This document shows, in pieces, positions 883-59,686 of a DNA stretch of 64,000 nt. Origin of the DNA: Desulfovibrionaceae bacterium (lineage in GTDB: Bacteria > Desulfobacterota > Desulfovibrionia > Desulfovibrionales > Desulfovibrionaceae). Position 1 is the stretch's first letter, and each line of letters starts with the position of its first letter. A program made the translations under genes and the position numbers. Below the pieces are notes generated by a model. The model saw only the letters and a program-made list of their open reading frames with translations, was not told the origin of the DNA and made no database searches. The stretch is taken from assembly GCA_016932995.1 (NCBI GenBank), contig JAFGBU010000010.1:62001-126000 (forward strand), in the 5' to 3' direction.

Positions 883-2064
883 TTAAGGGATGTTCCTCAA
901 GACGAAGAGCGGGTTGAAGACCTTTTCCGGGTCCTGGCGCATCCTGTTTCGGTCGCAGCCCCAGGAGTCCAGGACCTCGAAGCCCTCCAGGATCATGGGC
1001 AGCCTCAGCCGGCCGTAGACCCGGAACTCGTTGAAGTAGATCATGTCCCTTTCCGCGACCGGGACATTGAAAAACACCAGGCCCCCGGGCCGCAGGCGGG
1101 CCTTCATGGCCCGCATGGCCGCAAGGTCCGCGTCCGGGTCCAAGGGGTCGCCGTACGCGCCCAGGCCGTCGTGCTCGAACGAGGAGATGGACAGGGCGTG
1201 GTCGAACACCCTATCCCCGGAGGTGAACTCCCGGGCGGTGATGGTCTCTATGCGCAAGGTCCTGGAGATTATGGGGTTGTAGTCCACGGTCACCGGCCGA
1301 GCGCCGTGGCAAATGCAGAAGCCCTCGTACCACGGGCTGATCGAGCCCATGACCGCGACGCTCGCGCCCCGGATCGGGTGCCGGGCAAGGGCCTCGCGGA
1401 GCCAGTCGTCCAGCCGGCCGTATATGCCGCACTCGCCCAGGTCGATGCGCCGCAGGCAGTCGTCCAGCTCCTGGTCGGTGTAGATCAGCGGGTGGTTCGA
1501 GGGGTAGCGCCTGTCCCATATCTTGTGCTCCACGATCTCGCAGTCGCCGTTCATGGTGAAGGCGTCCACGAGCCCGGCCGGGATGTCCTCGGCCAGGGGC
1601 GGGAGCCCGCACGGCGCGCCGAAGTGCTCGCGGCACAGGGCCCGGTAGCGCCACAGGTACAGGTCGTGGAAGTAGCGGTGGAAGTCCCTGTCCCCGCGCA
1701 GGGCCTCGACGGCCTCGAAGACCTCCTTGTCGCGCCTGACCCTCTCGTCCTCGAGGTCGCGCATCAGGATGCAGGCCTCAAAGGGGCCGCGCCCCTCCAG
1801 CCGCCTGGCGATGTCCCGGTAGTTGGCCGAGGCGATGACCACCGCGTCGAGGGACTGCAGAAGCTCATTCGCCTCCTCGATGTTCACCAGACCCAGGCCG
1901 TCCAGCTCGCCGCTGGGCCTGAAGGTGTCCAGAAAGCAGATGATCCGCGCGTCCGGGCGCTCGCGCTCCAGATCCGCCCTGACCGACGCGCCGTAGGCCC
2001 CGGCGCCGTAGACGGCGACCCTGGTCCCGGGTAGATCACTAAGCGAATGAATGACCTTGAACAT
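883..2064 (-). CDS. Rossmann accessory domain fused to DUF268 methyltransferase-like domain
   Basis: This is a 393-residue protein. The ATG at 2064 is preferred over an upstream in-frame start because GGAGA lies just ahead of it. Residues about 8-105 form a Rossmann-like unit (RVAVYGAGAYGAS, then CFLDTF and VVIASANY) of the type repeated in other enzymes of this locus. The C-terminal half contains MGSISPWYEGFCI and VTVDYNPI, characteristic of the DUF268 family, which looks like a divergent SAM-dependent methyltransferase fold (DHALSISSFEHDGLGAYGDP and a late RPGG turn). The substrate is unknown; its place between glf-like and epimerase genes suggests a sugar or glycan intermediate. Confidence 0.7.
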   Translation of the reverse strand: MFKVIHSLSDLPGTRVAVYGAGAYGASVRADLERERPDARIICFLDTFRPSGELDGLGLVNIEEANELLQSLDAVVIASANYRDIARRLEGRGPFEACILMRDLEDERVRRDKEVFEAVEALRGDRDFHRYFHDLYLWRYRALCREHFGAPCGLPPLAEDIPAGLVDAFTMNGDCEIVEHKIWDRRYPSNHPLIYTDQELDDCLRRIDLGECGIYGRLDDWLREALARHPIRGASVAVMGSISPWYEGFCICHGARPVTVDYNPIISRTLRIETITAREFTSGDRVFDHALSISSFEHDGLGAYGDPLDPDADLAAMRAMKARLRPGGLVFFNVPVAERDMIYFNEFRVYGRLRLPMILEGFEVLDSWGCDRNRMRQDPEKVFNPLFVLRNIP

Positions 2065-2093
2065 GCCTTCTCCAAGTTTCCACAAGCCCGGCC

Positions 2094-7452: not shown

Positions 7453-8787
7453 TCAGCGGCCCGGGACCCGGTCTCCAAGCCCGGCGCCGGGTTGCGCTCC
7501 CAGGCCGTTCGCGGGCCATTGACCCTTGCGCTCCGCGCCGGCCGCAAGGCCGGGCAGGGCCTTGAGCTCGGCCAGGGCCAGACAGGTCCGCTCCGCGATC
7601 TCCGCGGCGAACCCCGCGCAGTAGTGGACCTCGTCCACATAGAGGTTCTCCGGCCGGCCGGCCTGGATGTCCTCCAGAAAGACCACCCTGCCCGCGTACA
7701 GGTCGTTGTGCTTCAGCTCTTGGATCAGGCAGGGATAGACGTCCCGGGCGTTTTCATTGTTGCCCAGGCCGTGGGAGGTGAGCATCCGGTGGCAGCCAAG
7801 GTCGTAGTTGAAGCTCGGCACGGGCTGGAGCACGACAACGGACTTGACCCCGTACTGCCTGGACAAGAGCTCGATCTGCCGGTGGTTGGCGGTGAAACGC
7901 CCGACCACCCGGCGCACGTCCTGGTCAGAGGGCTTCCTGTATCCCGGAAAGACCGGGGGGTCGTCATCGAGCTTTGACCCGGAAAACACCTCCAGCAGCC
8001 TTTCGAGCACGGTCATCAGGGGCAGGGACAACACGAACAGCTTCAAGCGGATCCATCTTGTCCTGGCCCGGGTGGCGTACTCGGAAAACTCGCGCTGCTG
8101 GCTGGACCTCTCCCTGAGCAGCTCGGTGTACAGCTCCGCGGTCGCGGTCTGGCCTCCGACGCAGACCGAGTCGTTCAGGCCGTCGAAGAACAGGACCAGG
8201 TCCGGGACATGGCCCTCGCTCAGCAGCCTCTGGAACAGTATCTTCTCCTGGGCCGAGTAAAAGGAGCAGCGGCCGAAGTTGTAGACCCGGGCCGGTCTTT
8301 CGGTCTTCCCGTCCAGGAACTCCTGCATCCGCGAGGCGACCGAGGTCCAGTCCGGGCCTATGTGATAGGTCGTCGAGCCGCCGAAGACAAAGATATTGAA
8401 GCATTCCGGGTCCAGGGGCCAGGGGCCCTGGTTGGCGACCAGGCGGAAGCCGTGGGCCGAGACGTTCCAGAACTCGCCCTTCATCTCCCGGTGCCGGAAC
8501 TCGCAAAACGGGTCGTAGTCTATGTCGATGCCCTGCAGGACGAGCTCGGACCAGTAGCGCTCAAAGGCCTGCGCGTCCGGCAGCCCGAGGTACTTGAATC
8601 TGTCGTCTTTCAGGTACAGGCGCTTGCGGTTGCCGACATCGCGCTTCCTGCGCCTGGACTCCGGGATGACCATTGCCGGAAAGAGCGAGACGGCCAGCCA
8701 GGCGAGCAGATTGAGCCCGACAAAGACCAGCCCCAGGGTCAGGACACAGGCCGAGACCTGGACATATATCTGGCTCGCCGCGCTCAC
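7453..8787 (-). CDS. Membrane-anchored SGNH/GDSL-type hydrolase (paralogue A)
   Basis: The 444-residue product starts at a GTG at 8787. One hydrophobic segment (residues about 10-42) is an N-terminal anchor and places the rest in the periplasm. SGNH blocks are visible: FGGSTT with Ser138 (block I nucleophile position), FFDGLND (203-206, block III GxND) and DEVHYC with Asp385 and His388 (block V DxxH). The family includes O-acetyl esterases and acetyltransferases acting on carbohydrates. A paralogue lies at 11491-12756, and both are preceded by a 37-residue membrane protein gene. Here 171 bp separate the two genes. The likely role is editing or acetylation of the locus glycan, by inference. 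Confidence 0.75.
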   Translation of the reverse strand: MSAASQIYVQVSACVLTLGLVFVGLNLLAWLAVSLFPAMVIPESRRRKRDVGNRKRLYLKDDRFKYLGLPDAQAFERYWSELVLQGIDIDYDPFCEFRHREMKGEFWNVSAHGFRLVANQGPWPLDPECFNIFVFGGSTTYHIGPDWTSVASRMQEFLDGKTERPARVYNFGRCSFYSAQEKILFQRLLSEGHVPDLVLFFDGLNDSVCVGGQTATAELYTELLRERSSQQREFSEYATRARTRWIRLKLFVLSLPLMTVLERLLEVFSGSKLDDDPPVFPGYRKPSDQDVRRVVGRFTANHRQIELLSRQYGVKSVVVLQPVPSFNYDLGCHRMLTSHGLGNNENARDVYPCLIQELKHNDLYAGRVVFLEDIQAGRPENLYVDEVHYCAGFAAEIAERTCLALAELKALPGLAAGAERKGQWPANGLGAQPGAGLGDRVPGR

Positions 8788-8958
8788 GGCTCAAGACCCG
8801 CGGCCAGAGGCCCGGCCGGTCGCGGCCCGGACAGGCCGAAAATACGAACCTCGACAGCGCCCCGCGAGCTACTGTCCAAAGCCGCCACAAGGCCGAAACC
8901 AGCCGCAAGGCCGTTTTGAAAAGCTGTTCCCATGTCCGAGCCCTTCACCGCGCGGTCC

Positions 8959-9072
8959 TCAAAAAACAGGATAGATGTCGTTGAACGTCTTCTTTTTCTT
9001 TCTCTTGTTGCGCATCAAAAGAACGACGCTTGCGACCACTATCGCCAGGCAGGAAAAGATTATATACCACAT
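8959..9072 (-). CDS. Small single-pass membrane protein, 37 residues (member A)
   Basis: The ATG at 9072 follows AAGGGAG with 8 nt spacing, and the frame closes at 8959. The sequence is a hydrophobic helix (residues 2-20, WYIIFSCLAIVVASVVLL) followed by a strongly basic stretch (RNKRKKKK) and the tail FNDIYPVF. A protein of exactly the same length and plan lies at 12768-12881, ending NNNIYPFW-like (KNNIYPFW). Each precedes an SGNH hydrolase gene. The positive-inside rule predicts an N-out/C-in helix. No known family comes to mind. The repeat of length, ending and gene context argues that it is a real gene. Confidence 0.75.
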   Translation of the reverse strand: MWYIIFSCLAIVVASVVLLMRNKRKKKKTFNDIYPVF

Positions 9073-9097
9073 CTCATATCTCCCTTGCTTGCTTCTC

Positions 9098-10318
9098 TCA
9101 TAATATTTCATTCGGCACGCAGTACCAGACCGTTTCGCCAAAGCCTATGTAATAGTGGCCTATGTAGTGCGTGTACTGCTTGAGGTTTTGTATCAAGAAA
9201 AGTGGTATTTCAACCATGTCCTTCTTGCTGTGATAGATCGATATCGCCAGCTGCGGCCTGTGCTTAAGTATGGTCTTGTAGGCCCCTTGTATGGCGTTCA
9301 TCTCCGCGCCCTCTATGTCCAGCTTTATGAAGTCGACCTTGCCTATGCCCCTCTCCTGGACGTAACTGTCCAGATCGCAGGCCTTGACCTTGATCCCTGA
9401 CTCGGCGAAGTCCCTGCTGACGTTCGCCCCGTCGTATCCCTGGCCGTACAGCCAGAGGTTTTCCCGGCAGTCCCAGAGGGCGTAGGGCTCTATGCAGTAT
9501 GCGCCCTCGAAGCGCTCAAGGCAGGGGCTCTTTATCTCCTCGAACTTGGCCCTGTCCGGCTCGAACCCGATGACCCTTGAGCCCGAGGGCGTGCGTTCGA
9601 GAAAGTTGCAGGTGTCCTGGCCGTCGAACACCCCGCCCTCAATGACCGTCTTCATTTTTGAAAAGTCAACGTGATCCAGGTAGTGCCTGTGCAGGGACAC
9701 GTTTGCGAAATGGAGTATGACCTTGGTGCTTGCCTCAAGAAAGTCCCTTTCCTTCTTGGTATAGGCGTACAGCCACTTGTTGTTGTAAAGCCCGTCCACC
9801 TCTTGGTTGTATTGCTCGATGATCCCGCTATAGGGCTCGAAGTTTCCGAAGTGGCAGTCCATCAGCGCCCTGTAGAATATCCTGTCCGAATCAAGCTTGA
9901 GGCTTGAGGCAATGATCCCGACCTTTTCCTCGGCCTCAAGCCGCTCGTCGTCCGAGCAGCGGAGCACTCCGAATATGTTCGCGATCCTGTGGACCACGTA
10001 GTTGTCGATGCCCAAGCCCTTCAGCCTGTCGATGATCTCCGGGAAGGCGTGCGAGCAGATGATTATGGCCTCAAAGGCCGCGCTGCTCTCCTTGAGCCGG
10101 TCCACCTGGACCACGGGAAGGCCGTTGAAGGTCCCGGATTTGAAGGAGTCGATGAAAAAGCAGACCCTTGCGCCCGGCAGCCTGTCTCTGATCAGGTTGT
10201 GGACGCGAATTCCCCTTTCGCCGGTCCCGTACAGGGCATAGACGCCGTTCTCGGGCAGCCCGTAAAGGTCGTCCCCGACGACCAGGCCCGGGGGCAAGCG
10301 ATCCTCTACTCGGCACAT
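9098..10318 (-). CDS. FkbM-family methyltransferase with N-terminal Rossmann accessory domain
   Basis: The 406-residue product starts at the ATG at 10318, with GGGA upstream. Residues about 27-115 are the locus accessory domain (VYALYGTGERGIRVHN, CFFIDSFKSGTFNGLPVV, AIIICSHAFPEI). The C-terminal half is an FkbM methyltransferase: VIEGGVFDGQDT is the SAM-binding region and DFIKLDIEGAEMNAIQGA is the family signature. FkbM enzymes O-methylate sugars or polyketides. Codon use is visibly more A/T-rich than in region 2 genes (TAT, AAA, TTT frequent), which could mark transfer. The 37-residue gene starts 25 nt downstream. Confidence 0.85.
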   Translation of the reverse strand: MCRVEDRLPPGLVVGDDLYGLPENGVYALYGTGERGIRVHNLIRDRLPGARVCFFIDSFKSGTFNGLPVVQVDRLKESSAAFEAIIICSHAFPEIIDRLKGLGIDNYVVHRIANIFGVLRCSDDERLEAEEKVGIIASSLKLDSDRIFYRALMDCHFGNFEPYSGIIEQYNQEVDGLYNNKWLYAYTKKERDFLEASTKVILHFANVSLHRHYLDHVDFSKMKTVIEGGVFDGQDTCNFLERTPSGSRVIGFEPDRAKFEEIKSPCLERFEGAYCIEPYALWDCRENLWLYGQGYDGANVSRDFAESGIKVKACDLDSYVQERGIGKVDFIKLDIEGAEMNAIQGAYKTILKHRPQLAISIYHSKKDMVEIPLFLIQNLKQYTHYIGHYYIGFGETVWYCVPNEIL

Positions 10319-10413
10319 TTTCAATCCCTTAATGAACGGTTTCGCACAGTCCTGCCGGGCTCAAAAGGTTCTCAGACATAAGTGTTGCAACTATCAGGCC
10401 GGGCCGATCAGGG

Positions 10414-11472
10414 TCATCTCTTGTGAAAGAGCAGGCAGGCGATGTCCGGGCTCTCATCCAGCGAGGCCTCGACCGGCTGCGGGTACGGCTCTCCGAGCCC
10501 GAACCCCTCCCCGGAGTACAGGGCGTAGTAGCGCTCCTCGACCAGGTCCCAGGAGAACTCGACGGGCCAGCCCATAGCCATGTCGTAAGAGAACACCCGG
10601 GTTATCCAATTGAAGTCCGGGGAGTAGAGAACGCTCTGCTCGTGCCTGTGGATGTCGTCTATGGAGTAGTGCCTGTTGAACGGCATGGTGATGAGCACAT
10701 GGCCGCCAGGCTTGCAGGACAGGTCCATGTTCACCAGCGCGGCCTTGTAGTCCTGGACGTGCTCCAACACGCTCACGCAGGTCACGAGGTCAAAGGAGTG
10801 GTCGTAAGAGGTGACCTGGATGTCCTCGTTGTGCACATAGCAGGCCGGATTGTTCTGGGCCTCGGCATTGCAGTCTATGGCCCTGACCTTTGCGTTGCCC
10901 CGCTCCATGAGCGAGGGCAGGCAGGACTCGCCGGTGCCCACATCGAGTATCCGGCGCGGGTAGTATTTGGCCAGGCAGTTGAAGACAAAGGCGTACTCGG
11001 CAAAGCGCTCCGAAAAGTACTCGTTGACGATGGTGAACATGGTGACCGCGTCCTTGTACAGATAGACGCGGACCCCGCCGAACCCCGCGGCCACCAGATC
11101 CTCGGTTATGGCCTTGTAATGACGCGGGCTTGAGCAGATGAACACATAGTCCAGGGACGCCAGCCTGCCCCTGTCCGCGGGCCCTGCCGGGTTGAGGTAG
11201 GGCAGGGAGCCGAGGGAGTTGGTCGGCCTTTCCCTGTCTATTACATATTCAAAGCGAACCCCCGGGACCCTGGCCAGGCACTCGTAGACAATGGTCGCCG
11301 CGCCCTTGGCCCCCCAGATGGCCACCCGGGCGCCCGGCTTGATGTTCTCCTTCAAGAACCGGTCGATCCTGTCCGTGATGGCGGTGAAGTTCTTGTACAG
11401 GTCGGCGCTGATCCTGGTGAACCAATCATAGGGGATGTCGATGCACAGGGGCTTCTTGTCCGTCGTTTTCAT
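10414..11472 (-). CDS. SAM methyltransferase with N-terminal accessory domain
   Basis: The 352-residue product starts at an ATG after GGGAGA. Residues about 46-135 resemble the accessory Rossmann unit (ARVAIWGAKGAATIVYECL, FEYVIDRER, YVFICSSPRHYKAI). From residue 170 on there is a class I methyltransferase core: RRILDVGTGESCLPSL (motif I), AIDCNAEAQ (acidic end of beta 2), SFDLVTCVSVLEHVQDY and KPGGHVLITMPF. The SAM-binding assignment is firm. The substrate is unknown but is presumably a glycan or lipid-linked sugar, given that it lies between two SGNH modules. It is followed by 95 nt without a gene before the FkbM gene. Confidence 0.8.
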   Translation of the reverse strand: MKTTDKKPLCIDIPYDWFTRISADLYKNFTAITDRIDRFLKENIKPGARVAIWGAKGAATIVYECLARVPGVRFEYVIDRERPTNSLGSLPYLNPAGPADRGRLASLDYVFICSSPRHYKAITEDLVAAGFGGVRVYLYKDAVTMFTIVNEYFSERFAEYAFVFNCLAKYYPRRILDVGTGESCLPSLMERGNAKVRAIDCNAEAQNNPACYVHNEDIQVTSYDHSFDLVTCVSVLEHVQDYKAALVNMDLSCKPGGHVLITMPFNRHYSIDDIHRHEQSVLYSPDFNWITRVFSYDMAMGWPVEFSWDLVEERYYALYSGEGFGLGEPYPQPVEASLDESPDIACLLFHKR

Positions 11473-11490
11473 TGTCTTTCTCCCAACCGG

Positions 11491-12756
11491 TTATGGTTGC
11501 TGCCCAGGCAGGGCCGATGGGCCCGGCTGGAGCAGTCCCCTTTGCACGAGCTCCGAGGCAAGGGCCCTGGCGATGTCCTGGGCAAAGGCCGCGGTGTAGT
11601 GGCAGGAGTCCAGGTACAGGTTCTCGGCCCGGTCCTGCTGCATGTCCGCCAGGGATATGAAGTTCGGCCTTTCAAGGCCCTGCTCGGCCATGATCTCGAA
11701 CAGCACCGGGTAGCCCCTGCCCGAGCGCTCCTGGCCCATCAGCCCGTGGCCCGCCTTCTTGAGGATCTGGTAGGGCGCGTGGTGGCGCAGGTCGTAGTTG
11801 TAGCCGGGCACCGGCTGGAGCGCGAACACGGCCCGGACCCCGAAGGCCTCGGACACGGCCTCGATCTCGCGCTGGTTGTGCACAAGCCGCCTGGAGACCT
11901 TCTCGTAAACGGCCCTGTCCAGCGCAACGTCCGTGTGGTAGGCCGTCTGTCCCGCGGCCTTTTTCATGACCAGGGCCTGCATGGCCCGTTCGAGCAGGAG
12001 CGGAAAGGGCAGGGACTGGAAGAACCTGCGCAGCGCGCCCCACTGGGGCGCGGCGAAGTTCCTGTTGGCCGACCTCTCGCGCTCGATGCGCGACTTCTCG
12101 CCCAGGGCCTCCTGAAAGCAGCCATAGGTCGCGGGCAGGCCCTCGAACATGTAGTAGTCGTTCAGGCCGTGGAAGAACAGGGCCATGTCCGGCCTAAAGC
12201 CCTCGGCGAGCAGCTTGGAGTGCAGTATCTTCTCCTGGGTGGAGAAATAGGCCGAGCATCCGAAGTTGTAGACCCTGACCTCTTTGCCGTGCTCGCTGTT
12301 CAGGCACTCCTGCAGGCGGCTGGCCACGCTCTGCCAGCCGGCCCCGGGATGCAGGGCCGTGGAGCCGCCGTAAAAAAAGATGTTGTAGTGCTTTGCTGTC
12401 GGCGGCCAGGGGCCCTGGTCCCTGCCGACCCTGAACCCGGGCCCGGCGATCTGGAAGTACTTTCCGGCAAAGGCCTTCATCCTGAACTCGACAAAGGGCT
12501 CATGGACCTCGGAGGCCTTGATCCTCTTGGTCTGCTCACGCATATACTCGGCGTACTGCTCTTTGCTCAGGCCGTACCACTCGTGCACCCTGTCCCTGGC
12601 CTCGGGGTCGGCCCTCAGGTCGTCGAGCGCGTAGCCAAGCTCGGTCTTTCTGCTCAGCCAGGCGCTGGCCCGGGGAAAGGCGAGCCGGGCCAGGACGTTC
12701 AGGAGCACAAAGAAGGCCAGCGCCAGGGCCAGGACATTCACGGCGTTCTCAAGCAT
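11491..12756 (-). CDS. Membrane-anchored SGNH/GDSL-type hydrolase (paralogue B)
   Basis: The 421-residue product uses the ATG at 12756, 11 nt after the small-gene stop. The Shine-Dalgarno is poor and an upstream TTG at 12774 is an alternative. Residues about 5-28 are a hydrophobic anchor. FYGGSTA carries the block I serine (Ser132), FFHGLND is block III (197-200) and LDSCH is block V (Asp383, His386). It matches paralogue A along most of its length, including VYNFG, STQEKIL and NYDLR. It is probably a periplasmic carbohydrate esterase or acyltransferase partner of the small membrane protein encoded immediately upstream. Confidence 0.75.
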   Translation of the reverse strand: MLENAVNVLALALAFFVLLNVLARLAFPRASAWLSRKTELGYALDDLRADPEARDRVHEWYGLSKEQYAEYMREQTKRIKASEVHEPFVEFRMKAFAGKYFQIAGPGFRVGRDQGPWPPTAKHYNIFFYGGSTALHPGAGWQSVASRLQECLNSEHGKEVRVYNFGCSAYFSTQEKILHSKLLAEGFRPDMALFFHGLNDYYMFEGLPATYGCFQEALGEKSRIERERSANRNFAAPQWGALRRFFQSLPFPLLLERAMQALVMKKAAGQTAYHTDVALDRAVYEKVSRRLVHNQREIEAVSEAFGVRAVFALQPVPGYNYDLRHHAPYQILKKAGHGLMGQERSGRGYPVLFEIMAEQGLERPNFISLADMQQDRAENLYLDSCHYTAAFAQDIARALASELVQRGLLQPGPSALPGQQP

Positions 12757-12767
12757 CGCTAGGTCGG

Positions 12768-12881
12768 CTACCAAAAGGGGTAGATGTTGTTCTTGTTCGC
12801 GTTCCTGGTGCGCCTGGCGCGCAAAAAGGCCCAGGCCCCGACGGCCGCGACGAGCATTGCGCAGGCTATGACGTACTTCAT
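12768..12881 (-). CDS. Small single-pass membrane protein, 37 residues (member B)
   Basis: The ATG at 12881 overlaps the upstream glycosyltransferase stop as ATGA, with GAGGGTG before it, so translation is probably coupled. The product has a hydrophobic helix (KYVIACAMLVAAVGAWAFL), a basic stretch (RARRTR) and the ending NANKNNIYPFW. Member A (8959-9072) is also 37 residues long with the same order: helix, basic patch, N-[DN]-I-Y-P-[VF]-aromatic tail. An SGNH hydrolase gene follows after 11 nt. I recognise no family. The function is unknown, but the context suggests a partner or regulator of the hydrolase at the inner membrane. Confidence 0.8.
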   Translation of the reverse strand: MKYVIACAMLVAAVGAWAFLRARRTRNANKNNIYPFW

Positions 12882-14236
12882 GTCACCCTCGCGTGCTTGG
12901 CACGGCTTGCCCGGGTCTCTGGCCGGGGCGGGGGTCCGCCGCCAAGGCCCGCGTCGGCCGTGTCCATGGATTTCACCGGCTGCCGGCCGGCCTCGGCGTC
13001 AAGGGCCTGGTCGAGCAGGTCCTTGACCATGCGGCTGTTGAACCTGTCCCTGTATGCTTCGAGGTTCGCGCACAGCCGCCCGTAGTCGCAGCCCCTGGCC
13101 AGGTCCACGACCCGGTCCAGGTCGTTCAGCTCGTAGGACAGGCCGAAGCCGTTTCCGACCACGGTCTCGTGGATGTAGGGGGCCTTGGTGTGCACCAGGA
13201 TGGGCAGCCCGGCCTCGACGTAGCTGAATATCTTGGTGGCCATGTTGATGGCGAAGTGGTCCGGGTTGTAGCTCGACTCGGGTATGTTCTCCCAGTAGAC
13301 GGCGAAGTCCTGGGTCGATATCTTCGCCGGCAGATCGAAGAACGGCACGCCCTTTTCAAAGGAGAAGTTCGGGTAAGTGTCCTGAAAGTCCATGTACCGC
13401 CTGTGCTCGTCCCAGAACATGTTGCGCGCGTTCTGGTTGACCACGAAGGTCAGCTCGCCCTGGTTGGCGCACACCGAGTGGATCAGGGGGTCCATGACGT
13501 GGTTCTCGTGTCTTTTGCTCACCGCGATGTGGTAGGGGATGATCCCGCCCGCGAAGACCAATTTGGGCGGCCTGTCCCCGCGATACCCGCCGCAGTCCTG
13601 GAACAGCTCGACCTCGGGCAGGCTGTGCACCAGCCAGTCCGGGGTCTCGAAGCCCCAGTCCGCGCGCATCTTGTCCACGCCCCAGCCGGGCATCTTGTGG
13701 ACAATGGCCGAGGCCTCGGAAAGGATGCGCGCCTCGAGCCGGCACTCGAAGCCGAAGGGATCCCGGCTCATGTAGTAGAGCGAGTCGTTGATGTCGACGA
13801 CCGCCCTTGCGCCGGTCCTGGCCGCGGCCTCCACGGCGATCGCGCCGTTTATCAGCGGCTGGATGACCGAGGACACGGCCCAGGGCCCGGCCGAGGACAA
13901 AATGTCGTAGAGCTCGGTGTAGTCCTCGACCTCGTAGCACTGGTCGAAAAAGCGCTCGGGATTGTGGTCCCGGCGCACGCAGCAGCCGATGAAGGTCAGA
14001 TAGTACTGCCCGCTGCGCCTAAGGGCCCAGGCCTTTTTGCAGACCGCGGGCTGGAGGTAGTAGGAGTTGAAGACCACGTGCCTCTTGCCGTCCACCAGGC
14101 GCTGGTCCAGGTGCCCGGGCCTGGTCCGGTAGACTAGACCCTCCCGGCCCCTGGGCATGGGGGCCTCGAGGTAGGTCTTTTGAAGGTAGCGCCTCTGGTC
14201 CGCGTCCAGCCAGTGGAAACGTTCGGTCTCGTTCAT
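12878..14236 (-). CDS. Glycosyltransferase-like protein (GT-B type)
   Basis: The 452-residue product starts at the ATG at 14236 behind GGGGGAGGAC, 11 nt after the upstream stop. Open frame before this start is an extension without support. ARAVVDINDSLYYMSRD lies early, and a C-terminal Rossmann half is suggested by KLVFAGGIIPYHIAV followed by MATKIFSYVEAGLPILV, a pattern frequent in GT4-like transferases. Near the end the protein becomes proline- and arginine-rich (GGGPPPRPETR), probably a disordered tail. Its last codons overlap the 37-residue gene. It likely adds a sugar in the cytoplasm; the donor is not identifiable. Confidence 0.65.
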   Translation of the reverse strand: MNETERFHWLDADQRRYLQKTYLEAPMPRGREGLVYRTRPGHLDQRLVDGKRHVVFNSYYLQPAVCKKAWALRRSGQYYLTFIGCCVRRDHNPERFFDQCYEVEDYTELYDILSSAGPWAVSSVIQPLINGAIAVEAAARTGARAVVDINDSLYYMSRDPFGFECRLEARILSEASAIVHKMPGWGVDKMRADWGFETPDWLVHSLPEVELFQDCGGYRGDRPPKLVFAGGIIPYHIAVSKRHENHVMDPLIHSVCANQGELTFVVNQNARNMFWDEHRRYMDFQDTYPNFSFEKGVPFFDLPAKISTQDFAVYWENIPESSYNPDHFAINMATKIFSYVEAGLPILVHTKAPYIHETVVGNGFGLSYELNDLDRVVDLARGCDYGRLCANLEAYRDRFNSRMVKDLLDQALDAEAGRQPVKSMDTADAGLGGGPPPRPETRASRAKHARVT

Positions 14237-53780: not shown

Positions 53781-53902
53781 GATCGGCGAATCCTGCCCAA
53801 AAAAAACCGCCTTGTCCACGCGCAAAAGCGGCGATTGACAAGCCAGGGGCCGGTTTCTATTGTCGAACCCGGTTTGTGGACAGCGACATGAGGAGCTCCG
53901 GC

Positions 53903-55063
53903 ATGTCCCGAGACAATGTCCCCGCCCGGGTCGTCGAGGCCCTGAGGCTGGTTCTGGCCGAACACAAGGGCCCGGTCGGCCTGCACGAGCCCTGCCTGGC
54001 GGGCAGGGAGTGGGAGTACGTCAAGCAGTGCCTGGACACGGGCTGGGTGTCCTCGGCCGGCTCATTCGTGGAGCGCTTCGAGTCCATGCTCGCGCGGTAC
54101 ACCGGCGCGGCCCGGGCCGTGGCCGTGGTCAACGGGACCTGCGGCCTGACCGCGGCCCTTAGGCTGTGCGGCGTGGGCCCAAACGACGAGGTCATCGTCC
54201 CGGCCCTGACCTTCGCGGCCACGGCCAACGCCGTGGCCCACCTGGGCGCGGTCCCCCACTTCGCGGACAGCTCCCGCCAGACCCTGGGCCTGGACCCGGA
54301 CAAGCTGGCCGAGCACCTGGACAGGATCGCGCTCCCGGGTCCGGACGGGCCGCGCAACAAAATCACGGGCCGGCGCATGGCCGCGGTGGTCCCGGTGCAC
54401 GTCTTCGGCCACCCCGTGGACCTGGACCCCCTGGCCGAGGTCTGCGCGCGCTTCGACCTGGTCCTGGTCGAGGACGCGGCCGAGTCCCTGGGCTCGCTGT
54501 ACAAGGGCCGGCACACGGGCAACTGGGGCCGGCTGGCCGTTATCAGCTTCAACGGCAACAAGACCGTGACCACCGGGGGCGGGGGAATGATCCTGACCAA
54601 CGACCCGGAGCTGGGCGAAAGGGCCAGGCATCTGACCAGCACGGCCAAGAGGCCGCACAAGTGGGAGTACTACCACGACCAGCCCGGCTACAACTACCGC
54701 ATGCCGAACATCAACGCGGCCCTGGGCTGCGCCCAGATGGAGCAATTGGCCGGGTTCGTGGAGCGCAAAAGGGACCTGGCCGAGCGCTATCGCCGGGCCC
54801 TGGCCGAGGTCCCGGGGGTCGAGTTCTTTGTCGAGCCCAAGTTCGCGCGCAGCAACTACTGGCTGAACGCCGTGATCCTTAAGGACCCGGGCCAGCGCGA
54901 CCCGGTCCTTTCCCAGACCAACGCCGCCGGGTTCGCGACCCGGCCGGTCTGGACCCTGATGCACAGGCTGCCCATGTACGAAAAGTGCCCGAAGATGCGG
55001 CTGGACACGGCCGAGGACCTGGAGTCGAGAATCGTCAACCTGCCGAGCGGGGCGGGCCTATGA
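53903..55063 (+). CDS. legC: DegT/DnrJ-type PLP aminotransferase, LegC-like
   Basis: The 386-residue product starts at the ATG at 53903 after AGGAG; the earlier GTG in frame lacks a ribosome site. It matches LegC-type UDP-4-keto-6-deoxy-sugar aminotransferases of legionaminic/bacillosamine loci: GREWEYVKQCLDTGWVSS, VNGTCGLTAALRL, EDAAESLGS and FNGNKTVTTGGGG with the PLP lysine at Lys220. It would add the C4 amino group to a UDP-sugar made by a dehydratase not in this window. Its stop overlaps the acetyltransferase start (ATGA), as in legC-legH pairs. Confidence 0.85.
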   Translation: MSRDNVPARVVEALRLVLAEHKGPVGLHEPCLAGREWEYVKQCLDTGWVSSAGSFVERFESMLARYTGAARAVAVVNGTCGLTAALRLCGVGPNDEVIVPALTFAATANAVAHLGAVPHFADSSRQTLGLDPDKLAEHLDRIALPGPDGPRNKITGRRMAAVVPVHVFGHPVDLDPLAEVCARFDLVLVEDAAESLGSLYKGRHTGNWGRLAVISFNGNKTVTTGGGGMILTNDPELGERARHLTSTAKRPHKWEYYHDQPGYNYRMPNINAALGCAQMEQLAGFVERKRDLAERYRRALAEVPGVEFFVEPKFARSNYWLNAVILKDPGQRDPVLSQTNAAGFATRPVWTLMHRLPMYEKCPKMRLDTAEDLESRIVNLPSGAGL

Positions 55064-55674
55064 AACAGGACCTCATCCTGATCGGCGGCGGCGGGCACTG
55101 CAAGTCCTGCATCGAGGTCATCGAGTCCCAGGGCCGCTTCGCCGTGGCCGGCATCGTGGACCTGGCCGAGCGCCTGGGCCAAAAGGTCCTGGGCTACGAG
55201 ATTCTGGCCACGGACCAGGACCTGCCCGGGCTGGTCAAGGACTACGGGCTGTTCCTGGTGACCATCGGCCAGGTCAAGAGCGTGGACCGCCGCAGGCAGG
55301 CCTTTGAGACCCTCAAGTCTCTGGGCGCGGAGCTGCCCGTGGTGGTCTCGCCCCTGGCCCGGGTCTCGCCCCACGCCGAGGTCAACGAGGGAACCGTGGT
55401 CATGCACAACGCCGTGGTCAACGCCGCGGCCAGGGTCGGCCGCAACTGCATCGTCAACACCTGCGCCCTGATCGAGCACGACGCGGTCATCGAGGACCAC
55501 TGCCACGTGTCCACGGCCGCGGTGGTCAACGGCGGCGTGCGCATGGGCGAGGGGACCTTTTTGGGCAGCAACGCCGTGGTCAGGGAGAATGTATCCATCG
55601 GCAGGGGCTGCGTGGTGGGCATGGGGGTCAGGGTTTACCGCAACCTGCCGGCCGGGTCCCTGGTCAAGCATTGA
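55060..55674 (+). CDS. PglD/NeuD-type sugar N-acetyltransferase
   Basis: The 204-residue product starts at the ATG overlapping the legC stop. The N-terminal Rossmann-like part (LILIGGGGHCKSCIEVI) binds the UDP-sugar. From about residue 95 a left-handed beta helix of hexapeptide repeats (ARVSPHAEVNEGTVVMHNAV and so on, GRNCIVNTCALIEHDAVIED with the catalytic His of the H-E/D pair) binds acetyl-CoA. The family acetylates the 4-amino group produced by LegC/PglE-like enzymes. Order and overlap make the functional link strong. The family is also called LegH in Legionella-type pathways. Confidence 0.85.
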   Translation: MKQDLILIGGGGHCKSCIEVIESQGRFAVAGIVDLAERLGQKVLGYEILATDQDLPGLVKDYGLFLVTIGQVKSVDRRRQAFETLKSLGAELPVVVSPLARVSPHAEVNEGTVVMHNAVVNAAARVGRNCIVNTCALIEHDAVIEDHCHVSTAAVVNGGVRMGEGTFLGSNAVVRENVSIGRGCVVGMGVRVYRNLPAGSLVKH

Positions 55675-55697
55675 GTTTTTTGCGGAGATTGCAAATC

Positions 55698-56711
55698 GTG
55701 TCCGAAAAGATATTCATCATCGCCGAGGCCGGGGTGAACCACAACGGCGACCCGGACCTGGCCCTGCGCATGGTCCGGGCCGCGGCCGAGGCCGGGGCGG
55801 ACGCGGTCAAGTTCCAGACCTTCCGGGCCGAGAGCCTGGCAACCTCAAAGGCCCCAAAGGCCGAATACCAGCGCCTGACCACCGGCCAGGAGGGCTCCCA
55901 GCTGGAGATGCTCAGGCGCCTGGAGCTCGACCGGGCCGCGCATCAGGCCCTGGTCCGGGCCTGCCGAGAGCAGGGCGTGGAGTTCATGTCCACGCCCTTT
56001 GACCTCAAGAGCGTGGACCTGCTCCTCGGCCTGGGCATGCGCGTCTTCAAGGTCCCCTCGGGCGAGATCACCAACCTGCCGCTCCTGCGGCGGATCGGGT
56101 CCCTGGGCCGGGAGCTGATCGTGTCCACGGGCATGGCGGACATGGACGAGGTGGGCCAGGCCCTCAGGGCCCTGGAGCAGGCCGGCGCGGACAGGAAAAA
56201 TATCACCCTGCTGCACTGCACCACCGAGTACCCCGCGCCCTTCGAGGACCTGAACCTGCGGGCCATGGCCGCCATGGCCCGGGCCTTTCCCGGGGTGCGC
56301 GTGGGCTACTCGGACCACACCCAGGGCATCGAGGCGGCCATAGCCGCGGCCGCGCTCGGGGCCCGGGTCATCGAGAAGCACTTCACCCTTGACAAAAACA
56401 TGGCCGGCCCGGACCATCGGGCCAGCCTGGAGCCGGACGAGCTCAAGGCCATGGTCAGGGCGGTGCGCAATGTTGAAAAGGCCCTTGGAAGGGATATAAA
56501 GGGACCGAGCCCCGGCGAGGTCAAGAACAAGGCCGCGGCCAGGAAGTGCCTGGTGGCCGCCCGGGCCATAGCCAGGGGCGAGACCTTTTCCGAGGCCAAC
56601 CTGGCGGTCAAGCGCGCCGGGGTGGCCGGGGTCAGCCCCATGCTCTGGGACCAGGTCCTGGGCCGGCCGGCCAAGCAGGACTTCGAACCGGACCAACCCA
56701 TAGAGATTTAG
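55698..56711 (+). CDS. Nonulosonic acid synthase (NeuB/LegI family)
   Basis: The 337-residue product starts at a GTG at 55698 with GGAG about 10 nt upstream; a TTG at 55671 overlapping pglD is an alternative. The TIM barrel shows IIAEAGVNHNGD, DAVKFQTF, MSTPFD, VPSGEITNLPLL and GYSDHTQG, all typical of NeuB/LegI/PseI. A C-terminal SAF antifreeze-like domain (CLVAARAIARGETF to the end) closes the active site. It condenses a 6-carbon amino sugar with phosphoenolpyruvate to a 9-carbon nonulosonic acid. With LegC-, PtmE- and NeuA-like neighbours, legionaminic-type acid is likelier than sialic acid. Confidence 0.9.
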   Translation: MSEKIFIIAEAGVNHNGDPDLALRMVRAAAEAGADAVKFQTFRAESLATSKAPKAEYQRLTTGQEGSQLEMLRRLELDRAAHQALVRACREQGVEFMSTPFDLKSVDLLLGLGMRVFKVPSGEITNLPLLRRIGSLGRELIVSTGMADMDEVGQALRALEQAGADRKNITLLHCTTEYPAPFEDLNLRAMAAMARAFPGVRVGYSDHTQGIEAAIAAAALGARVIEKHFTLDKNMAGPDHRASLEPDELKAMVRAVRNVEKALGRDIKGPSPGEVKNKAAARKCLVAARAIARGETFSEANLAVKRAGVAGVSPMLWDQVLGRPAKQDFEPDQPIEI

Positions 56712-56744
56712 GGGCCGCGCAGGCCCAAGGAGCCGAACCAGGCC

Positions 56745-57803
56745 ATGTCCTCGAACTGGAAATCCGTATTGGTGTCCCCGGACACCCCGATCATAGAGGC
56801 CATCCGGATCATCGACGGCAGCGCCCTGCAGATCGCCCTGGTCGTGGACGGCCAGGGACGGCTGCTGGGCACGGTGACCGACGGCGACATCCGCCGGGGC
56901 ATCCTCCAGTCCGTGCCCACGGACGCGCCGGTCAGCCGGATCATGTGCGACCGGCCCACGGCCGGGAGCGTGCACGACGACCGCGAGACCCTGCTGACGA
57001 TCATGAAGCGCAAGGTCCTGCGCCAGATACCCATCCTGGACGACTCCGGCCGGATCGTGGGCCTGGAGACCATGATCGAGCTCATCCAGGGCCGGGACAT
57101 GGACAACCCCGTGGTGCTCATGGCCGGGGGCCTGGGAAACCGGCTCCGGCCCCTGACCGAGGACTGCCCCAAGCCCCTGCTCAGGCTCGGGGACAAGCCC
57201 ATCCTGGAGATCATCCTGGAGAACTTCCTGAACTACGGGTTCAAGAACTTCTTCATCTCGGTCAACTACAAGGCCGAGATGATCGAGGAGCACTTCGGGG
57301 ACGGGTCCCGCTGGGGCGCGAGCCTGACCTACCTCCGGGAGGACCGGCCCCTGGGCACGGCCGGGGCCCTGGGCCTTCTGCCCGCGGGCCAGAGCCTGCC
57401 CGTGCTGGTCATGAACGGCGACCTGCTGACCAAGGTCAACTTCGCCCACCTCCTGGAGTTCCACCGGGAGTCCGGCTCGGCCGCGAGCATGTGCGTGCGC
57501 GACTACGGCCTGCAGGTGCCCTTCGGCGTGGCCAAGGTAGAGAAGGGCCGCCTGGTCGGCCTGGAGGAAAAGCCCTGCCACAACTTCTTTGTCAACGCCG
57601 GGATCTACGTGCTCAACCCCGAGGTCCTGGACCGGGTGCGGCCGGACACGGCCATAGACATGACCACCCTGCTCGAGGGCCTGGTCAGGGACGGCGGCGA
57701 GGTGACCGTGTTCCCGGTGCGCGAGTACTGGCTGGACATAGGCAGGCTGAGCGACTATGAGCAGGCCAAGGGCGAGTACTGCCAGCACTTCAACGACGAA
57801 TGA
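56745..57803 (+). CDS. ptmE: CBS-domain sugar-1-phosphate nucleotidyltransferase, PtmE-like
   Basis: The 352-residue product starts at an ATG behind AAGGAG. Two CBS motifs (about 10-115; DTPIIEAIRIIDGSALQIA, DGDIRRGI) precede a nucleotidyltransferase domain (VLMAGGLGNRLRPLTEDCPK, about 122-141). The same fusion is known in Campylobacter PtmE, which makes GDP-glucosamine at the start of legionaminic acid synthesis. The C-terminal REYWLDIGRLSDYEQA is usual for the family. This points to GDP-linked early steps, while LegC-like enzymes may work on UDP- or GDP-sugars. Its stop overlaps the next start (ATGA). Confidence 0.85.
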   Translation: MSSNWKSVLVSPDTPIIEAIRIIDGSALQIALVVDGQGRLLGTVTDGDIRRGILQSVPTDAPVSRIMCDRPTAGSVHDDRETLLTIMKRKVLRQIPILDDSGRIVGLETMIELIQGRDMDNPVVLMAGGLGNRLRPLTEDCPKPLLRLGDKPILEIILENFLNYGFKNFFISVNYKAEMIEEHFGDGSRWGASLTYLREDRPLGTAGALGLLPAGQSLPVLVMNGDLLTKVNFAHLLEFHRESGSAASMCVRDYGLQVPFGVAKVEKGRLVGLEEKPCHNFFVNAGIYVLNPEVLDRVRPDTAIDMTTLLEGLVRDGGEVTVFPVREYWLDIGRLSDYEQAKGEYCQHFNDE

Positions 57804-58915
57804 CCCGCCCGGCGAGCCTGTCCATGCCCGGTTCAAAGATCGACCTTAGAAACCTGCTCAACCCGGCCAAGTTCCTGCCCGCCTACCTGGAGCGCAAGGA
57901 CCGGGACCCCTTGGGCCTGGCGCCCTACTCCGTTGAGTTCCACCTGACCTCGACCTGCAACTACAACTGCTGCCACTGCTCCTACGGGACGCGCAACAGG
58001 GCCGGGACCTTTGTCCGGCCCAAGCGAATCGAGCTTTTGCTGGAAGATTTGACCGGGCCGCTCAGGCCGAGGGGGGTCTACTTCTCGGGCGGGGGCGAGC
58101 CGACCACGCTCAAGGGCTGGGACGGCTACATCCAGCGCCTGGCCGACAGCGGCGTGCGCACCGCCCTGGTGACCAACGCCTCGCTTCTGGGCCAAAGACA
58201 CCTGCCCGCCCTGGCCAGGCTCGACTACCTGGCCGTGTCCATCTACAGCCCGAACCAGGAGACCTACAAGAAGATCACCGGCGGCGACAGGTTCGCGGCC
58301 CAGTTCGAAATCCCGGCCATGGTCAAGGCCGTGGCCCCAAAGGTCACGGTCGGGGCCAGAAACGTGATCAACCCCCACAACCACGCCCAGGTCCCGGACA
58401 TCTACCGCCTGGCCATGCAGGCCGGCTACGACTACGTGATCTTCATCCCGGAGATCGACTACGAAAAACGCGGCCTGGCCCTGAGCGCCCAGGAGGTCGA
58501 GACCCTGCTGGACATCTGCCCCAGGGCGGACGCGGACCCGGCCAAGACCAACCTGACGGGCCTGGTCGCCAACCGCTTCGGGTACTACCGCGACTTCCAG
58601 GACATCTGCGGCCAAATCGACTGCCTGGCCGCCCGGCTGCGCACCAACGCCTTCGTCAACTACGACGGCGGGGTCTACCTCTGCCAGCCGCTGATCGGGA
58701 ACCAGGACTACTGCGTCGGGAACATCAATGAAAAGCGCCTGGCCGAGATATGGAACTCAAAGCGCCACCAGGCCGTGGTCGAGGCCCTGAGCGGCCGCTG
58801 GCGCGCGGGCCAATGCGAGAACTGCCGCTCCGGCTCGCACAACCGGGCGGCGCTCGAGTACCAAAAGGCCCCGGAAAACACGCCCCTGACCGTGCTCAAG
58901 GACAGCTTTTTGTAG
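57800..58915 (+). CDS. Radical SAM enzyme with SPASM-like C-terminus
   Basis: The 371-residue product overlaps ptmE by 4 nt, so it is part of the nonulosonate operon. The cluster motif is C53, C57 and C60 in STCNYNCCHCSYG. GVYFSGGGEPTT is the usual glycine-rich SAM-contact block. A C-terminal auxiliary cysteine set is seen in GGVYLCQPLIGNQDYCVGNI and CENCRSGSHN. It is similar in plan to the genes at 40118 and 62226. Its co-translation with ptmE suggests a step in sugar synthesis or modification of the glycan carrier, but no substrate can be named. Confidence 0.85.
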   Translation: MTRPASLSMPGSKIDLRNLLNPAKFLPAYLERKDRDPLGLAPYSVEFHLTSTCNYNCCHCSYGTRNRAGTFVRPKRIELLLEDLTGPLRPRGVYFSGGGEPTTLKGWDGYIQRLADSGVRTALVTNASLLGQRHLPALARLDYLAVSIYSPNQETYKKITGGDRFAAQFEIPAMVKAVAPKVTVGARNVINPHNHAQVPDIYRLAMQAGYDYVIFIPEIDYEKRGLALSAQEVETLLDICPRADADPAKTNLTGLVANRFGYYRDFQDICGQIDCLAARLRTNAFVNYDGGVYLCQPLIGNQDYCVGNINEKRLAEIWNSKRHQAVVEALSGRWRAGQCENCRSGSHNRAALEYQKAPENTPLTVLKDSFL

Positions 58916-58975
58916 CCCATTTTGATCTTGATGCTTGGGAACGGCGCGCTTTTCGGCTTTTTCCTGCGCTTCGCC

Positions 58976-59686
58976 CTAATCCGAACCCTTGGCCCTGAGC
59001 AGGCACTCGCAGAGCGCAAGGTCAAGGGGCGTGTCCACGTCCAGGCCCCTTTCCCGGGGCATGACCAGAAGCTCGGTCTCGGCCTCGCGCACGAACAGGC
59101 CCTGGGAGCGCAGAAACTCCGTGGAGTTGACGTACACCGCGCCGTTTATGAAGTAAAAGCGCTCTGTTCCGTAGTCCTGACGCCGGTGGACCGGTTTTTC
59201 CGGCCGGGCCAGAAAGCCCCAGGTCCGGCCCGAGGTCCTGAGGCACTCAAAGGGGTGCTCGGCCAGCTCGTGGACCGTGACCAGGCTCCGGGACCCGGAC
59301 TTGAGAAAGGCCGCGACCGCGGCGTCGATGTCCGCGGCCAGGCGCAAAGGGCAGGTCGGCTGGAGCAGGGCCACGGCGTCCGGGACATAGCCCTGCTCGG
59401 CCTCCAGCCAGTCCAGGCCGTGCAGCACGCAGTCGATCACCCGGGAGTCGTCCGCGGCAAGAGAGGCCGGCCGCACATACGGGGAGTGCAGGCCGAGGGC
59501 CCTGCAGACCTCGACTATCTCGGCATCCTCGGTGGACAGAAAGACCCTGTCCAGGGCCCGGCTCTTTAGGGCCGCGTCCACGGTGTAGCTGATGAGCGGC
59601 CTTCCGGCCAAATCAGCCAGGTTCTTGCGCGGGATGCCCTTGGAGCCCCCGCGGGCGGTGATGAAGCCCAGGACCCTTGCGGACAT
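58976..59686 (-). CDS. CMP-nonulosonate cytidylyltransferase (NeuA/LegF family)
   Basis: The 236-residue product starts right after the upstream TAG (no gap), with GAGG 8 nt before the ATG. FITARGGSKGIPRKNLADLAGRPLI is the NeuA-type CTP-binding loop, distinct from KdsB, which has an ARxxSTRLPGKPL-type loop. LLQPTCPLR and a C-terminal GLDVDTPLDLALCE (metal-binding acidic residues) also fit. It activates a nonulosonic acid as CMP-sugar before transfer. It is encoded in the operon of the KdnA/KdnB-like genes and converges with the ptmE operon, so its substrate might come from either pathway. Confidence 0.9.
   Translation of the reverse strand: MSARVLGFITARGGSKGIPRKNLADLAGRPLISYTVDAALKSRALDRVFLSTEDAEIVEVCRALGLHSPYVRPASLAADDSRVIDCVLHGLDWLEAEQGYVPDAVALLQPTCPLRLAADIDAAVAAFLKSGSRSLVTVHELAEHPFECLRTSGRTWGFLARPEKPVHRRQDYGTERFYFINGAVYVNSTEFLRSQGLFVREAETELLVMPRERGLDVDTPLDLALCECLLRAKGSD

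Follow-up and report, generated by a model that had tools for sequence, protein, structure and literature searches.

Tyrosine-tailed microproteins as probable partners of SGNH enzymes in bacterial surface-glycan loci

We describe a set of single-pass membrane microproteins that probably partner SGNH enzymes, a view based on the recurrence of the gene pairing in distant bacteria. Two of the microproteins are encoded in the stretch of DNA analyzed here, a 64,000-nucleotide window of a Desulfovibrionaceae genome (G000:C14:62001-126000; assembly of 2.48 Mb, 99.5% complete), alongside two SGNH genes and their neighbors:

7453..8787, minus strand: SGNH protein A, with an N-terminal transmembrane (TM) segment and then a basic stretch; GGST, GLND and DxxHY intact
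8959..9072, minus strand: microprotein A, 37 aa (37 codons, MWYIIFSCLAIVVASVVLLMRNKRKKKKTFNDIYPVF); one TM helix, a basic patch and the conserved tail FNDIYPVF; orthologue in genome G030
9098..10324, minus strand: FkbM-type methyltransferase between the two modules (PF05050, E 5.6e-16)
10414..11472, minus strand: SAM methyltransferase directly downstream of SGNH B (PF13489, E 2.3e-14)
11491..12774, minus strand: SGNH protein B, paralogue of SGNH A; likely start at the ATG at 12756
12768..12881, minus strand: microprotein B, 37 aa (37 codons, MKYVIACAMLVAAVGAWAFLRARRTRNANKNNIYPFW); tail KNNIYPFW; start overlaps the upstream stop (ATGA)
12878..14182, minus strand: probable glycosyltransferase upstream of microprotein B, resembling by eye a homologue in the G030 cluster (L062 14935-16182); a Pfam search gave no match

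Both micro-ORFs are true genes and not chance reading frames. A previous sequence-only reading had called two 37-codon genes at these positions, and we confirmed both on the minus strand; their equal length carries no meaning, as family members range from 36 to 42 residues. The gene for microprotein A follows the FkbM gene and has an AGGGAG-type ribosome site ahead of its ATG. A TTG start would extend it to 60 codons, but the longer form is disfavored because the G030 orthologue has an ATG in roughly the position of the 9072 ATG. The proposed coupling of microprotein B to the gene ending at 12878 was borne out by the ATGA overlap. Each micro-ORF had also been said to precede a paralogous SGNH gene. 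The paralogy held (37–38% identity between SGNH A and B) and the spacing needed correction: 171 nt separate the microprotein A gene from the SGNH A start as listed, and the microprotein B gene either overlaps the TTG start of SGNH B or lies 11 nt from the likelier ATG. As anticipated, neither microprotein had a Pfam or NCBIfam match above the cut-off, the DltX family included, and neither matched the DUF5989 model PF19451. The microproteins are apparently uncatalogued as a family and are short enough for routine annotation to miss.

Searches for relatives brought the set to six microproteins from five genomes in two distant groups, the four additional members coming from G030, Azospirillum cavernae (G507), G628 and G872, with the last two being genomes from the class and order of A. 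cavernae. Each of the six has a single hydrophobic helix and a basic patch, and ends in [DN]-I-Y-P-x-[FW]. G030 belongs to the same family as the window genome and has a similar gene order: its orthologue (MVFWIVVALVLICVVACGILRIRHNKKKKTFQDIYPLF) is encoded by a gene ending 3 nt before an SGNH gene whose product is 47% identical to SGNH A, and the locus continues with methyltransferase, glycosyltransferase and epimerase genes resembling those in the window. The G628 gene (product ending NPNDIYPLW) is likewise directly upstream of its SGNH gene, so that four of the six microprotein genes (A, B, G030 and G628) directly precede a member of a single clade of anchored SGNH proteins. For A. cavernae, the microprotein gene (product ending KDIYPHW) is in the same cluster as the SGNH gene (L008 5998-7251), on the opposite strand, in a gap of 200 nt that lies 1.8 kb past the SGNH stop. 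In G872, the gene (product ending NPNDIYPLW) and the anchored SGNH gene are ~31 kb apart, but another SGNH gene starts 7 nt downstream of the micro-ORF; its 656-aa product is soluble, contains TPR-like repeats and lacks a TM segment (L209:5664-7634, minus strand).

In the SGNH tree, the six linked SGNH proteins group together with that of G799. Of the six genomes that have a close SGNH relative, five contain the microprotein gene; no recognizable micro-ORF was found in the sixth, G799, or in the genomes with more distant SGNH relatives (G732, G655, G834, G369, G443, G159 and G387). SGNH loci lacking the small ORF had been named at the outset as evidence that would count against a partnership, and here the picture is mixed: many distant homologues are without the ORF but have a different N-terminus, while in the closest clade the ORF is missing only from G799 and is located away from the anchored SGNH gene in G507 and G872.

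Several other features of these loci were recorded. At its start, the A. cavernae contig with the SGNH gene carries a further near-copy of that gene, frame-broken and perhaps an assembly artefact (L176:31-1389, minus strand). A short PglD_N-like Rossmann domain recurs (L008:7248-7694 and L008 9189-9626, plus strand; L209:5202-5645, minus strand; window 883-2085, minus strand), being combined with a C-terminal hydrophobic segment in the alphaproteobacterial loci and forming the N-terminal part of some window genes. Elsewhere in the window (53876-59686), a group of DegT-like, NeuD-like, NeuB-like, nucleotidyltransferase and NeuA-like genes looks by eye like nonulosonic acid synthesis.

A search across genomes for ORFs ending in the tail motif had also been proposed. 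We scanned 395 + 119 genomes with a DNA pattern for [DN]IYPx[FW] followed by a stop. Where F/W and the stop were genuinely encoded, the match was read upstream in frame, apart from one at a contig edge. Across these ~500 genomes, the combination of helix, basic patch and tail occurred only in A, B and G030 among the inspected matches, and no credible unlinked helix-plus-tail gene emerged. One hydrophobic ORF ending in the tail, from L117, was discarded since it lies out of frame within a 556-codon ORF. A microprotein-only profile search of 297 genomes returned, beyond A and B, mostly matches in long frames that aligned over the helix only. No match was obtained with tblastn of the A. cavernae microprotein against plasmids, or in a search of viral contigs; an SGNH search in plasmids yielded one weak Gemmatirosa match with DUF5989 beside it.

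Codon comparisons show purifying selection on the tail, as had been suspected from the conservation of its motif. Over the last eight codons, pN was below pS in 15 of 15 microprotein pairs (for example, pS 1.38 and pN 0.15 for A versus G030), values that indicate constraint and not a rate, given the small number of sites and the almost saturated pS. The codons used for the invariant I, Y and P vary, and pN is high in the rest of the ORF (0.51–0.67).

Charge distribution predicts a tail on the cytosolic side. The six microproteins have 0–1 basic residues before the helix and 4–7 in the 15 residues after it, so the prediction is an N-terminus outside and a cytoplasmic tail. In the linked genomes, the anchored SGNH proteins have 0, 0, 0, 2, 0 and 0 Lys/Arg before the TM segment, compared with 2–7 in ten unlinked relatives (Mann–Whitney p 0.0016; p 0.024 for net charge), p-values that are uncorrected for phylogeny and overstate independence because the SGNH rows are related by descent. 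The G507 SGNH protein has the opposite charge bias. Overall, the linked SGNH domain is predicted to be anchored at the inner membrane face, facing the cytosol, and the soluble G872 protein, a single case, fits a cytosolic partner. The small protein had been proposed to dock, export for or regulate the hydrolase as a micro-subunit. A specific tie to one SGNH clade is supported; export fits poorly because the charges would put the tail in the cytoplasm.

The partner proteins resemble the SGNH/GDSL superfamily (PF13472) in their sequence blocks: GGST, GLND and DxxHY are intact in both SGNH A and SGNH B, and GGST, YNFG, G[LI]ND and DxxHY are all present in the six linked proteins. They differ in scoring below the Pfam cut-off (19.1 and 21.2 bits for SGNH A and B; cut-off, 32.9) and in an N-terminal region of ~120 residues with no family assignment. 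Foldseek matched a low-confidence AlphaFold2 model of SGNH A to GDSL esterases and TesA, which serves as a rough fold check only (3-row alignment; mean pLDDT, 52). A sequence search of solved structures gave nothing beyond CgnD (E 0.21) and an unrelated methyltransferase. Block II gave no clear marker of transferase versus hydrolase activity, since the residue two past YNFGR is variable (S, A or G).

We tentatively propose that the tail enters the SGNH catalytic site, or lies next to it, and displays its tyrosine at that site, with the enzyme acylating or deacylating a sugar before export. Under this proposal, microproteins of 36–42 aa would partner one SGNH clade within surface-glycan loci, with tail and SGNH domain both on the cytosolic membrane face. 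The invariant tyrosine would be offered at the catalytic site after the manner of the DltX or PatA tail, perhaps delivering an acyl group to it, and the modified sugar would be lipid- or nucleotide-linked. With both partners on the cytosolic side, an acyl-transporting MBOAT would be unneeded, which fits the lack of any MBOAT (PF03062) match in the 99.5% complete window genome; there was also none in A. cavernae and one in G030. The fully specified version, an MBOAT-free, cytosol-facing acyl-tyrosine shuttle in which a free-standing microprotein, inverted relative to DltX, hands an acyl group to an SGNH transferase during glycan assembly, is rather unlikely. Several observations count against action of the tail at the active site, including Asp or Asn instead of Phe at motif position 1, the opposite charge bias of the G507 SGNH protein, the separation of the micro-ORF from the anchored SGNH gene in G507 and G872, and the SGNH gene without a micro-ORF in G799. 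In addition, known acyl shuttles act on the outer face, while the tail here is predicted to be inside. Action at the active site nonetheless remains, with some hesitation, the best single explanation, and a pure tether is nearly as likely.

As such a tether or scaffold, which is a serious contender though also short of an even chance, the tail would be a docking peptide that keeps the SGNH protein at the inner face, perhaps along with glycosyltransferases or PglD_N-like proteins, and the tyrosine would bind without ever being acylated. A short tail with invariant I, Y and P and an aromatic end is typical of docking peptides, the soluble SGNH neighbor in G872 is a protein for which tethering would make sense, and the absence of MBOAT from G000 and G507 agrees with a non-catalytic role. 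However, most of the SGNH partners already have a membrane anchor of their own, and the placement of the tyrosine and terminal aromatic is rather close to that of acyl-shuttle tails.

A strictly DltX-like arrangement, with the tail outside and an MBOAT or AT3 protein encoded elsewhere supplying the acyl group to a periplasmic SGNH enzyme, is improbable. The motif has the same spacing as FXYXXF, AT3 genes exist in G000 (one) and G507 (at least one), and unlinked SGNH relatives have the basic N-termini expected for a periplasmic domain. Set against these points are the 4–7 basic residues between helix and tail, the missing MBOAT in G000 and G507, the location of the G000 AT3 gene on another contig and the soluble SGNH neighbor in G872. 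Still less probable is a tail tyrosine on which the surrounding glycosyltransferases would build a glycan or another group, the tyrosine acting as primer and the SGNH enzyme editing the product: the tyrosine is close to a free C-terminus and glycosyltransferase and epimerase genes are nearby, but the microprotein is tightly tied to a single SGNH clade, with no such tie to any one glycosyltransferase family, and we know of no precedent for such a primer in loci of this kind. Finally, chance or non-translated ORFs have a negligible likelihood, even though the ORFs are short, given that the genes recur across phyla, show purifying selection at the codon level, and have ribosome-binding sites and ATGA coupling.

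Placing the tyrosine at the SGNH active site invites comparison with known acyl-transfer systems. For Dlt and PatAB, an MBOAT protein loads the acyl group onto the tyrosine of a C-terminal FXYXXF motif, from which an SGNH enzyme takes it, and MBOAT/SGNH pathways other than Dlt are stated to lack a DltX-like microprotein (PMC12148441). DltX, which functions with DltB (MBOAT) and DltD (SGNH) in teichoic acid D-alanylation, is also a single-TM microprotein with an SGNH partner gene, and its short C-terminal tail has a tyrosine three residues before the terminal aromatic (Y-x-x-aromatic-COOH). In contrast, the tail described here is [DN]IYPx[FW] and not FXYXXF, with Asp/Asn replacing the first Phe and Pro following the Tyr, and a basic patch between helix and tail predicts that the tail is inside. 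Judged by its charges, the missing host MBOAT and Asp/Asn at position 1, the microprotein is not DltX. The C-terminal hexapeptide of PatA in Gram-negative peptidoglycan O-acetylation is similar in presenting an IYxxF-type tail to an SGNH enzyme (PatB), but it is fused to the MBOAT and faces the periplasm, whereas the tail here belongs to a separate protein of 36–42 aa.

Another parallel is DUF5989 (PF19451), an IYxxF-ending microprotein encoded with SxtJ and a NodU-type carbamoyltransferase near distant relatives of the same SGNH proteins. We observed it near SGNH relatives in four loci (L068:4136-4294, L061:7112-7270 and L174:1898-2080, minus strand; L075:10161-10361, plus strand), and all four proteins have a FIYxxF or MIYALF end that resembles the acyl-shuttle motif of DltX and PatA. 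DUF5989 adjoins the SGNH relative in L068 and L174, both with a carbamoyltransferase-type gene close by, and in L174 SxtJ and a NodU-type carbamoyltransferase are adjacent. A literature search retrieved no paper naming DUF5989, or SxtJ together with SGNH. The two microprotein groups differ in that DUF5989 has its basic residues before the helix, and so a predicted inverted topology, and is accompanied by SxtJ and carbamoyltransferase genes, families that were both absent from the scanned window genes around the pairs. Comparison by hhalign gave a 1.2% probability, that is, no detectable homology between DUF5989 and the window-type microproteins. In our reading, similar tails may have been put to use beside related SGNH enzymes in both groups. 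The new microproteins and, separately, DUF5989 near SGNH, carbamoyltransferase and SxtJ genes suggest that SGNH enzymes are served more widely by free tyrosine-tailed microproteins, for which an MBOAT may be dispensable.
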